In this document: positions 22,740-27,164 of the stretch, one piece after another
How the letters are laid out: each line of letters starts with the position of its first letter
Numbering within the stretch: the stretch's first letter is position 1
Assembly (NCBI RefSeq): GCF_002067135.1
Contig: NZ_CP020105.1
Span: 4,402,001-4,466,000 of the forward strand
Source of the DNA: Spirosoma rigui
GTDB taxonomy: Bacteria; Bacteroidota; Bacteroidia; Cytophagales; Spirosomataceae
Reading direction: 5' to 3'
Length of the DNA: 64,000 nt
Position numbers and translations under genes: made by a program
The notes under the pieces: generated by a model
What the model was told of the DNA's origin: nothing
Database searches by the model: none
What the model saw: only the letters and a program-made list of their open reading frames with translations

Positions 22740-22907
22740 CCCTGATTTTTCCGTTGTGGGCTTACGCACGCCTAATTGTATTTTACGATCGATTCATAGA
22801 ACTTTCTTCGCCTTCTACGGGGAAATAAAGAATAAAAAGCGTATTTGATCCTCATTCAGCCAACGTCTCCCAACGCTACTACGCATCCATCGCCGATGCT
22901 ACACGCT

Positions 22908-25052
22908 ATGAAAAAGTTTATACGACTCTGCCTAACGCTCACCGTATGTATGTACCGATTCGCTTCGGGGCAAACCTTCCCGCTCGAATCGGTAAAGAGT
23001 TACCCCTTCCCTACGGGCCTGACCAGTTCGGCACAGGGTTCCCGGATCGCGTGGGCCCTCGATGAACAGGGAAAACGGAATGTGTACGTTGCCGAAGGGC
23101 CGGACTTCACCCCCCGTAAGCTGACAAACTACTCCGAAGACGACGGGCAGGAACTGACCAGCCTCTCTATTTCGGCCGATGGAAACTGGGTCGTCTACGT
23201 CCGCGGGGGCGACCATGGGTCCAACTGGGACGATGAACTACCCGTCAATACGCTGTCGGTGCCGAGCCCCCCCAGCGTGCAGATCTGGAGTGTGCCGTTT
23301 GCGGGGGGCGCCCCTAAGCTCATTGGCGAAGGCGATGAACCTGTTATCTCACCGGCCAGTGACCGGGGTACGCCAGCCCGGATTGCTTTCGTCAAAAAAG
23401 GACAGGCCTGGGTAGCCCCCGTCGATGGATCGCAGGCGGCCAAAGCCCTATTTACCGCCCGGGGTACCAACCGGGCCCTCGTCTGGTCGCCGGACGGGTC
23501 CAGGCTAGCCTTCGTCTGCGACCGGAAAGACCATGCGTTCGTGGGTGTCTTCACCGGCGAAACGGCTCCCATCACCTGGATAGCTCCGTCGTTTGCGAAA
23601 GATGCTTCCCCGCGCTGGTCACCCGATGGTCAGCGACTGGTATTCGTTCGCACGCAGGGAACGGGTGGCGCTCCCGATTCAATACTGGCGCGTACGCACA
23701 TCCCCTGGTCTATCTGGACAGCCGACGTAGCATCGGGCCGGGCTACCCGGCTCTGGCAGGCACCCAAAACGCTGGCAGGTTCGGTACCAACCACTCACGG
23801 TGGATTCAACCTGAACTGGGCCGCCCGCGAGCGGATCGTGTTCCTGTCGTATCAGGATGGCTGGCCGCACCTGTATTCCATACCATCGGCCGGAGGAACG
23901 CCCCTCCTGCTGACACCCGCGCCGTTCATGGCCGAGCACATCACGCTAAGCCACGACCGTCAGTGGCTGCTCTTCAGCGGCAATACCGGTCCCGACAAAC
24001 TGGACATTGACCGACGGCACGTCGTCCGGGTACCCGTCGACAAAGCCGTCATGGACGTGCTCACGCCCGGTACCGGACTCGAATGGACGCCGGTCCTTAC
24101 GGGCGACGGGGCTACAATTGCCATGATCAGCGCCACGGCACAGCGCCCACCCCTGCCGGCAGTCATGGCGTTCACAAAAAGCACCCCCAGATTACTTGGG
24201 CAGAACCTGATACCAGCCAGTTTTCCGCAGGCTCAACTGGTAACGCCCAAACAGGTTACGTTCACCGCGCCCGATGGCATGGTCGTCCACGGGCAGTTGT
24301 TCGAACCGGCGGAGGGATCAAAAAAGTCCACGGAGCGCCGGCCGGCACTGATCTACGTGCATGGCGGGCCTCCCCGCCAGATGCTGCTGGGCTGGAACTA
24401 CTCGGACTATTACGCCAATTCCTACGCCCTGAACCAGTACCTGGCCAGCCAGGGCTTTGTCGTGCTGTCGGTAAACTACCGCCTGGGCATTGGCTACGGC
24501 TACGACTTCCACAAACCCGCCAACGGAGGTGAACGGGGCGCATCGGAGTACCAGGACGTGCGGGCGGCCGCGCTCTGGCTCACCAGACAGCCACAGGTCG
24601 ACCCCGCCCGGATTGGCATTTACGGCGGCTCCTACGGCGGTTACCTGACCGCGCTGGCCCTCGCCCGCGACTCCAGACTGTTCGCGGCCGGGGTCGACAT
24701 CCACGGTGTGCACGACTGGAGTCAGGCGGGGGAAGGAGGCAATCCGGGTGACCGCTACGAGAAAGCGCCCGACCACGCGAGGGCGGCTGCAATCGAATGG
24801 GCATCCTCACCCGTTTCGTCGGTCAGTACCTGGACATCGCCCGTATTGATCATCCACGGTGACGACGATCGGAACGTACGGTTTAGCCAGAGCACCGATC
24901 TGGTCCGGCGGCTCGACCGGCAGGGTGTACCGATGGAGACGCTGGTTATCGTCGACGATACGCACCACTGGATGAAGCACAGCAACGCCCTGAAAATAAG
25001 TGCCGCTACCGCCGACTATTTCAAACGAAAGCTGCTGAAAGCAAAGCAGTAA
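22908..25052 (+). CDS. Secreted S9 prolyl oligopeptidase-family serine peptidase
   Basis: The 714-residue protein has a signal peptide after the ATG at 22908 (MKKFIRLCLTLTVCMY...). A TolB/WD40-like beta-propeller follows (about 40-430), with repeats such as WSPDGSRLAF and WSPDGQRLVF. The C-terminal alpha/beta hydrolase has nucleophile Ser575 in GGSYGGY, an Asp in IHGDDDRNV and a His in DTHHWMK. S9C-type enzymes cut dipeptides or acyl-peptides. The start at 22908 was chosen because it gives a clean leader; codons at 22845 and 22896 only add polar residues. A small hairpin follows at 25074. Confidence 0.92.
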   Translation: MKKFIRLCLTLTVCMYRFASGQTFPLESVKSYPFPTGLTSSAQGSRIAWALDEQGKRNVYVAEGPDFTPRKLTNYSEDDGQELTSLSISADGNWVVYVRGGDHGSNWDDELPVNTLSVPSPPSVQIWSVPFAGGAPKLIGEGDEPVISPASDRGTPARIAFVKKGQAWVAPVDGSQAAKALFTARGTNRALVWSPDGSRLAFVCDRKDHAFVGVFTGETAPITWIAPSFAKDASPRWSPDGQRLVFVRTQGTGGAPDSILARTHIPWSIWTADVASGRATRLWQAPKTLAGSVPTTHGGFNLNWAARERIVFLSYQDGWPHLYSIPSAGGTPLLLTPAPFMAEHITLSHDRQWLLFSGNTGPDKLDIDRRHVVRVPVDKAVMDVLTPGTGLEWTPVLTGDGATIAMISATAQRPPLPAVMAFTKSTPRLLGQNLIPASFPQAQLVTPKQVTFTAPDGMVVHGQLFEPAEGSKKSTERRPALIYVHGGPPRQMLLGWNYSDYYANSYALNQYLASQGFVVLSVNYRLGIGYGYDFHKPANGGERGASEYQDVRAAALWLTRQPQVDPARIGIYGGSYGGYLTALALARDSRLFAAGVDIHGVHDWSQAGEGGNPGDRYEKAPDHARAAAIEWASSPVSSVSTWTSPVLIIHGDDDRNVRFSQSTDLVRRLDRQGVPMETLVIVDDTHHWMKHSNALKISAATADYFKRKLLKAKQ

Positions 25053-25073
25053 TGACAAGCGTGACGGTGGCGG

Positions 25074-25092
25074 CAGGTTGAGAACCTGGCAC
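25074..25092 (+). repeat. Hairpin copy CAGGTTGAGAACCTGGCAC flanking the RES-Xre locus
   Basis: CAGGTT-GAG-AACCTG forms a 6-bp stem 21 bp after the S9 peptidase stop. All 19 bases recur in reverse orientation at 26197-26215, on the other side of the toxin-antitoxin genes. Confidence 0.7.
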
Positions 25093-25202: not shown

Positions 25203-25210
25203 TATTTTTG
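25203..25210 (+). promoter_or_regulatory. Bacteroidota -7 box TATTTTTG before the antitoxin
   Basis: TATTTTTG is an exact TAnnTTTG match, 27 bp before the antitoxin ATG at 25237. The promoter of the toxin-antitoxin pair therefore appears intact. Confidence 0.55.
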
Positions 25211-25236: not shown

Positions 25237-25668
25237 ATGAAACGAGCAGCACTAGCCGAAAGCCCCATTCTACGGGATGTACCCGGGCACATTAACGACA
25301 GCGAAATCCTGCATTTCCTTTATACGAAGGATGTTAACTGGTAACATGTCAATGCCATTAAAACCCTGACTGATTTCAATGATGACGTTATTTCAGATTA
25401 GCTGAATGTAAGTGTCAAAACGTTTCGGGAATACAAAAAGCCCCAGAATACATTCAAAGAAAACGTTAAAGAACAGGTTCTGCTCCTTCTATCCCTGATC
25501 AAACATGGCATTGCCGTATTTGGCACCATCAACGAATTCGATCAGTGGCTAAACCGAAAGAACTTTTTTTTCGACAACAAAAGCCCCAATTCATTTTTGA
25601 ATACAGTAACAGGGGTACGATTTGTGGACGATCGGCTAACGGCCCTCGAGCACGGAGATAATGTATAA
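25237..25668 (+). pseudogene. Xre/MbcA/ParS-type antitoxin with two in-frame stop codons
   Basis: From the ATG at 25237 one frame runs 143 codons to a TAA at 25666-25668, broken by TAA at 25342 (codon 36) and TAG at 25399 (codon 55). Ignoring the stops, the translation reads as an Xre antitoxin. Around the second stop it is SD*LNVSVKTFREYKKP, where relatives have W (TGG to TAG is one base). The C-terminal part (FGTINEFDQWLN, then LNTVTGVRFVDDRL) is the conserved toxin-binding domain of MbcA/ParS proteins. The frame itself is undamaged, and TAATG couples it to the toxin. No in-frame ATG follows the second stop, so the neutralising domain is not made in the normal way, unless stops are read through or the sequence is in error. 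Confidence 0.85.
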
Positions 25669-26120
25669 TGGAAGTATTCCGCATCAGCAAGGAGGCCTAC
25701 GCCCAGACATTACGCTCCTCGGGTAGTGCCAACCGGTGGAATACGAGAGGACAGCAGGTCATCTATACCGGCTCATCGCGGTCCTTATCATCGCTGGAGT
25801 TAGTTGTTCACCGGGGCTCTGTACAGCCGGCTACTGCCTACAAGGTGATGGTTATTTCGATAGCCGATGACGATTACCTGATTAAACAGTTCTTAATCAA
25901 AGACCTGCTTTCAAGCTGGCGGAGCTTAGCCGGTTATTCAACCTTGCAAAAGATTGGTTCGGCCTGGTATGACAGCCAGGAAACGGTGGTGCTCAAGGTG
26001 CCTTCGGCCATCATTATCTACGAATATAATTACATCATCAATACCGAACATCCTGATTTTGCCCGCACCATCCAGCTCGTGCGGACTGAGGATTATTTTG
26101 GGGATTCCCGACTTTTGTAA
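25668..26120 (+). CDS. RES-domain toxin (NAD-depleting type II toxin)
   Basis: The 150-residue protein matches RES toxins. It has NRWNTRGQQVIYTGSSRSLSSLELVVH at 22-48 with Arg23, Tyr33 and Glu44, the residues known to line the NAD-binding pocket, and ends with HPDFARTIQLV. Characterised RES toxins (MbcT, ParT and the Photorhabdus and Pseudomonas proteins) degrade or transfer ADP-ribose from NAD and stop growth. The start codon overlaps the antitoxin stop (TAATG). The frame is full length, with no visible damage. The usual Gly before RWN is Asn here, which might lower activity. With the antitoxin interrupted, an active toxin should be harmful, so either activity or expression may be reduced. 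Confidence 0.9.
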   Translation: MEVFRISKEAYAQTLRSSGSANRWNTRGQQVIYTGSSRSLSSLELVVHRGSVQPATAYKVMVISIADDDYLIKQFLIKDLLSSWRSLAGYSTLQKIGSAWYDSQETVVLKVPSAIIIYEYNYIINTEHPDFARTIQLVRTEDYFGDSRLL

Positions 26121-26189: not shown

Positions 26190-26226
26190 CCCCGTAGTGC
26201 CAGGTTCTCAACCTGACACTACGGGG
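26190..26226. terminator. Bidirectional terminator, 17-bp stem with one mismatch
   Basis: CCCCGTAGTGCCAGGTT (26190-26206) pairs with 26210-26226 around CTC, with one C-A mismatch. It lies between the RES gene and the convergent nucleoside hydrolase gene, and includes the 19-bp sequence shared with 25074-25092. Confidence 0.8.
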
Positions 26227-26234
26227 AGCGCCGG

Positions 26235-27164
26235 TCAACGCTTGAACTGGGCGAGGAGGTATTCGTAGAAAACAGTGGTATTAACCCCCGTAGCGATGGT
26301 GAGCCTGTAGCCCGATTCGTCCAGATACGTTTGCCCCGCGTTGGGTGGGCGGGTGCTGACGTTTGCCCTGACCACTTCGGTGGTAAACTGCCCGGGCAGC
26401 GCCAGGTAGCTGGTCGCCAGAATATCCCACATGAAGTAGGTGTAGTGGTAACTCGGAATGGTATCGATCGTCAGCGCCCAGAGCTGGCCCGTCAGGTTCG
26501 AGAGCCGGTGATCGATCTGCGTCGCCAGTCTTGACAGGAACGACTTCGTTACGGGTACATGATTCGTTACGTCCAGCGGAATCAGCGTCAGGGGTAACTC
26601 CCACGACAGTAGTTTCTGTGAGCTGATCGGGTCCCAGAACACATTCCATTCGGCCGTACCATCGTGCTGAAAAGTCTGCACGTTGCCGGGTGTCCGGAAT
26701 GCCCCCGCCATCCAGACGATCTCCGCAACCTTACTTTTCAGTTCGGGAGCTTTTTCCAGCGCCAGCACCAGGTTGGAGCAGGGACCGGTCATCAGAATCG
26801 TGACAGCGTCGGCAGCGCCGGACAGCTTGTCGATGATCAGATCCGGGGCGCTCGGGTAAGCGTAGGGATCGGGCGACGGGGGCAGGTTGATCAGCAGCGG
26901 CAGGGCATTAATGATCTCGGGCCGCGCCCGCCACTCGTTCGGAAAGGCATTGATCCCGTAGTAATCGCCCCGCCCGATGGCAATGTCCGTCCTGTCCATC
27001 AGCTGGAGCAGCTTATACGTCGATTCGAGGGCTGGCTCAATGTAGCAGTCGGCGGGGGTAACCGTAACGCCGATCAGGGTTACGTCGGGCATGGTCAGCA
27101 CGAGCAGTTGCGACAGCAGATCATCGATCGCACCGTCGTGGTCCATCAAAAGAAGGTTGGGCAT
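26235..27164 (-). CDS. Nucleoside hydrolase (IunH family)
   Basis: The 309-residue protein has the calcium-site Asp cluster at the N-terminus (DHDGAIDD; the family norm is DTDPGIDD). It also has the substrate-contact segment AEWNVFWDP and the late Asp in MWDILATSYLALP. Such enzymes hydrolyse nucleosides to ribose and base. The first motif is changed at the Pro-Gly positions, and the usual His before the late Asp is Trp, so its preference may be unusual. It has no signal peptide, unlike its upstream neighbours. It ends a run of seven minus-strand genes that includes a purine nucleoside permease-type protein, which supports a role in nucleoside salvage. Confidence 0.87.
   Translation of the reverse strand: MPNLLLMDHDGAIDDLLSQLLVLTMPDVTLIGVTVTPADCYIEPALESTYKLLQLMDRTDIAIGRGDYYGINAFPNEWRARPEIINALPLLINLPPSPDPYAYPSAPDLIIDKLSGAADAVTILMTGPCSNLVLALEKAPELKSKVAEIVWMAGAFRTPGNVQTFQHDGTAEWNVFWDPISSQKLLSWELPLTLIPLDVTNHVPVTKSFLSRLATQIDHRLSNLTGQLWALTIDTIPSYHYTYFMWDILATSYLALPGQFTTEVVRANVSTRPPNAGQTYLDESGYRLTIATGVNTTVFYEYLLAQFKR

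Follow-up and report, generated by a model that had tools for sequence, protein, structure and literature searches.

A probably horizontally acquired Xre-RES module in probable decay on the chromosome of Spirosoma rigui: an interrupted antitoxin gene next to an open toxin frame

The Xre-RES locus of Spirosoma rigui has an antitoxin gene interrupted by two nonsense codons and, downstream of it, an open RES toxin frame. It is probably a horizontally acquired addiction module at an early stage of decay on the chromosome, tolerated by the cell because its toxin is weakened, barely translated, or both. The window analysed is a stretch of 64,000 nt from the complete 5.83-Mb chromosome of the one genome representing the species, and positions are given in window coordinates unless the chromosome (C1) is named. 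The locus is explained in broad outline by known decay of toxin-antitoxin (TA) modules and does not point to a new mechanism; its mildly unusual part is that the antitoxin is visibly broken and the toxin open.

The antitoxin of Xre/MbcA/ParS type (25237..25668, forward strand) is a pseudogene with a full-length frame of 143 codons, stopped by TAA at codon 36 (25342..25344, forward) and by TAG at codon 55 (25399..25401, forward), and no restart preserves its toxin-binding domain. Frame length, both stops, and the TAATG coupling to the toxin had been described in the original prediction and were all confirmed by translation. In the assembled bases, the frame has no indel, and its terminal TAATG overlaps the toxin start by 1 nt. 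The intact antitoxin from a plasmid of S. oryzicola is 89% identical over 143/143 positions, with one TAG and one TAA inside the aligned frame of S. rigui. A relic of the PF09722 toxin-binding domain (25507..25656, forward) lies 3' of both stops and scores 37.7 bits against a cut-off of 24.5; the helix-turn-helix part of the frame was not recognised by Pfam. This score after the stops, together with the full-length match, identifies the frame as the relic of a real gene. No uninterrupted frame can yield the PF09722 domain, as TAA36 and TAG55 are followed by TTG at codon 121, within the domain, as the next common start. The locus thus does not have both genes intact, as is expected of a functional Xre-RES module.

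In 198 related genomes, 11 close orthologous toxins with 69–79% identity were found, and all 11 adjoin an antitoxin frame that is free of stops, also at these two codons. Ten of these frames read CAG (Gln) at codon 36 and one has a codon for Arg, so that TAA differs from CAG by two base changes, not one. Codon 55 is TGG (Trp) in 11/11, as had been predicted for the position of the TAG. An error of assembly or consensus behind the stops is very improbable: it would have to account for three separate base changes from the CAG and TGG of most relatives within 60 bases, all of them making in-frame stops and none an indel, and the genes on either side can be aligned with those of relatives over essentially their whole length. 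Against its nearest relative, the antitoxin has dN of 0.058 with synonymous sites saturated, which indicates purifying selection on the frame until recently. When window-specific changes were counted by simple parsimony, the antitoxin had 5 nonsynonymous and 11 synonymous changes (stops excluded) versus 16 and 27 in three sister branches. Its body thus carries no excess of amino acid changes, and the earlier view that the change is recent holds. The same count for the toxin gave 12 nonsynonymous and 7 synonymous changes versus 17 and 28 in three sister branches (p = 0.10, not significant), a weak hint that the toxin may have relaxed earlier than the antitoxin.

Several routes by which the cell could still obtain antitoxin protein were considered. 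Internal restart was rejected, as no ATG, GTG, or TTG is in frame between the second stop and codon 121, and no common start lies 5' of the binding domain. Readthrough or recoding of both stops into a functional antitoxin would be in keeping with a frame otherwise perfectly kept and free of excess amino acid changes. However, two different stops stand in series, and in the orthologues both are sense codons. Moreover, of the 43 tRNA matches found in the genome, none was assigned a stop-reading anticodon by ARAGORN (one weak match was left uncalled), and rescue by a suppressor tRNA was rejected for the tRNAs identified. Readthrough, one of four compensations named in the original prediction, is thus extremely unlikely.

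Another of the four, an unlinked antitoxin, was rejected for the same subtype, no such copy being present in the complete genome. The search for a second MbcA/ParS-type antitoxin returned a single one, belonging to an intact Xre-RES pair of a different subtype at C1:4000274-4001023, and what is left of that proposal is possible cross-talk from this one divergent pair. Neutralisation of a still active toxin by its antitoxin would be helped by the facts that the pair is intact and encodes the sole other PF09722 protein of the genome, that the C-terminal part of its antitoxin can be aligned with the pseudogene, and that a terminal E-x-GD stretch is common to both. The two antitoxins are, however, only 28% and the two toxins 44% identical, and almost every surveyed RES toxin of Spirosoma keeps its own adjoining antitoxin, even where several pairs coexist. 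We consider this cross-neutralisation quite improbable.

Among the best 150 RES matches in the genus survey, 119 have a listed adjacent antitoxin domain, and an adjacent open Xre-type frame was seen in 24/28 further RES matches fetched. Short antitoxin frames occur in four of the 119, i.e., in the window and in genomes G018, G001, and G035. The catalytic Arg is lost in two of the three other pairs with a broken antitoxin, the motif reading GGQWN in L212 (G001) and GDPWN in L213 (G035), and it is kept in G018. A widespread Spirosoma Xre-RES pair with an extra open frame between antitoxin and toxin was also encountered (L106, L107, and L108 in G017, G018, and G001, respectively). In these pairs the antitoxin is 1–2.5 kb from the toxin, and the intervening frame resembles an AraC-type regulator in G018 and G001.

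The toxin of the window (25668..26120, forward) is an open frame of 150 aa with a RES domain, as PF08808 scores 69.7 bits against a curated cut-off of 23.2. Its AlphaFold2 model has pLDDT of 92.1, and the best matches of the model in Foldseek, with E-values down to 3e-12, are ParT (6d0i), VPA0770 (8gug), the RES toxin of Pseudomonas putida (6gw6/9r35), and MbcT (6fkg). Model and alignment agree in an ADP-ribosyltransferase-like RES fold with the conserved Arg, Glu, and Ser; in the alignment R23, Y33, E44, and S113 are all present, as had been claimed for the NAD-site residues. The suggestion that Asn before Arg23 inactivates the toxin fails, as NRWN is the norm of the subtype and occurs in 11/11 close orthologues with open antitoxins. 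Compared with 17 other full-length close-subtype toxins, the toxin departs from otherwise invariant sites only by L107V and W145G. Codon 145 (26100..26102, forward) is GGG for Gly in S. rigui and codes for Trp in the other 17/17. Elsewhere the site is Phe in Cyclobacterium and hydrophobic in other RES toxins with a readable tail, and Pro stands at this position in the RES toxin of P. putida. On this residue comparison, it is plausible that W145G costs the toxin activity, and it is uncertain whether the toxin with Gly145 would still degrade NAD+ and arrest growth.

Two related toxins with changes of their own were seen beside open antitoxin frames. In Flavihumibacter cheonanensis (L071, 5001-5450), the close-subtype RES toxin has R23W next to an open antitoxin, so the order of decay is reversed there; it is the one close-subtype toxin copy without Arg23. 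In Pseudarcicella hirudinis (L076, 5001-5450), a related RES toxin has an in-frame stop and its antitoxin frame is open.

In the original prediction, growth was expected to stop once a RES toxin is free of its antitoxin. This is not universal, as NatT of P. aeruginosa does not act in the absence of NatR: deletion of natR abolishes toxicity, and NatT without its partner is insoluble and degraded (PMC11535050). By analogy, the toxin of S. rigui could be folded and catalytically able but silent without its antitoxin as a solubility partner, which would make loss of the antitoxin intrinsically safe. In NatT, however, the effect is ascribed to the Flap insertion, and RES toxins without the Flap are toxic alone (PMC11535050). 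The 150-aa toxin resembles the shorter ParT, VPA0770, and P. putida RES far better than NatT (8qnl/8qnq) in Foldseek, and judging from this comparison the Flap is likely missing from it. Silence of the NatT kind is therefore an improbable reason for tolerance.

Weakening of the toxin and low expression through lost coupling or polarity are the likeliest of the four compensations originally proposed. The former fits W145G. As for the latter, the part of the proposal that amounts to simple transcriptional silence fares less well. A putative promoter box, TATTTTTG (25203..25210, forward), is aligned with a similar block 5' of the antitoxin in 11 relatives. It resembles a Bacteroidota -7 promoter box (TAnnTTTG). 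Conservation of this putative motif suggests that transcription may persist and argues against simple transcriptional silence. A toxin start hidden in RNA structure was rejected as well, folding of 25600-25720 being no stronger than that of shuffled sequences.

The surroundings of the pair point to its arrival from outside. It lies between a gene of an S9-type peptidase (22845..25052, forward) and a converging gene of a nucleoside hydrolase (26235..27164, reverse). In G012 and G010, the converging peptidase and hydrolase genes adjoin each other without a TA module, with a gap of about 87 bp and about 113 bp, respectively, so the module is absent from the same site in these two relatives. The gap in the window is 1.18 kb and holds the TA pair, with G+C content of the module of 40–50% versus 57% for the window. 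Two palindromic hairpins bracket the module. The left one has core CAGGTTGAGAACCTG (25067..25092) and is an inverted copy of the right one, which has 17-bp arms and core CAGGTTCTCAACCTG (26190..26226) and is located between the converging genes. The core pattern, CAGGTT-NNN-AACCTG, occurs twice in the 5.83-Mb genome, both times at the borders of the module. Similar short hairpins are sparse in other Spirosoma genomes, and short hairpins also occur between the same flanking genes in relatives; the bracket may thus be a terminator that was split or duplicated.

Among copies whose location is known, the closest are intact ones on three Spirosoma plasmids, i.e., unnamed4 of S. oryzicola and unnamed1 and unnamed2 of Spirosoma sp. 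KNUC1025, with toxins 77–79% identical to that of the window. The two plasmids of strain KNUC1025 carry two different intact copies of the subtype (L214 on unnamed2 and L215 on unnamed1). Carriage of the module by phages was considered and rejected, as no relative was confirmed in viral contigs.

Staged decay of the same subtype is seen elsewhere in the genus. Intact pairs are present in 7/36 Spirosoma genomes, and four others (G010, G013, G020, and G002) contain remnants more decayed than the copy in the window. Internal deletions have fused antitoxin to toxin sequence in G010, G013, and G020, and the remnant in G002 is a fragment at a contig end with a nonsense codon. At toxin codon 145, G010 has TAG, G013 has GGG, and G020 has a 1-nt deletion. 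Every full-length close-subtype copy with an open antitoxin has Trp145. On the tree, the G010 copy clusters with another copy than that of the window (support 87), which makes its change at codon 145 independent of that in the window; the G013 copy is unplaced, and its W145G may not be independent. A decayed fragment in Fibrella (L118) retains Trp145, and the change at this codon is thus not universal in decayed copies. It is conceivable, though rather unlikely, that codon 145, in the YFWDxRLL tail, is repeatedly the first site to be hit and that these hits disarm the toxin ahead of the decay of the module. If this were true, RES toxicity would depend on the tail in a way not recognised so far.

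In the preferred reading of the locus as a decaying acquired module, a type II Xre-RES module of a subtype shared by plasmids and chromosomes would have entered the gap between the two converging chromosomal genes. The toxin would have been weakened first, by W145G at the site where Trp is found throughout the close subtype, and the antitoxin would then have been free to gain stops, with deletions to come later, as has gone further in the sister genomes. Ribosomes halting at codon 36 would leave about 320 nt untranslated, so that coupled translation of the toxin probably falls. We infer that the cell tolerates the open toxin since it no longer acts, its harmlessness being due to the weakened protein and to the loss of translational coupling or to polarity. 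Counting against this, the toxin retains R23, Y33, E44, and S113, the putative promoter motif is conserved, and W145G is not known to inactivate the toxin, Pro standing at this site in P. putida RES. One would expect an open toxin that has lost its antitoxin to harm the cell, and such loci can reveal which changes of the toxin or losses of expression come first. The locus is a natural snapshot of the dismantling of an addiction module, with several Spirosoma genomes at different stages of one decay, and these staged copies allow tests of the sequence in which events occurred and of what one toxin residue contributes.

The module shares with the Xre-RES / MbcTA / ParST / NatRT family (PF08808 and PF09722) the order antitoxin-toxin, the RES fold, the catalytic residues, and, as a relic, the binding domain. 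It differs in the two stops of the antitoxin and in Gly at a C-terminal toxin site that is normally hydrophobic. In the usual scheme of TA decay, the toxin is the partner seen inactivated. Nonsense mutations and deletions are documented routes of decay for chromosomal modules, e.g., for ccdO157 of Escherichia coli (Mine et al. 2009, as cited in PMC7167474). As at the S. rigui locus, an addiction module associated with plasmids is there being lost in stages from chromosomes in these ways, but in S. rigui it is the antitoxin that is visibly broken, and the frame of the toxin has stayed open. The copies on S. oryzicola unnamed4 and on KNUC1025 unnamed1 and unnamed2 have the same subtype and layout as the copy in the window, but in them both frames are open and Trp145 is present.
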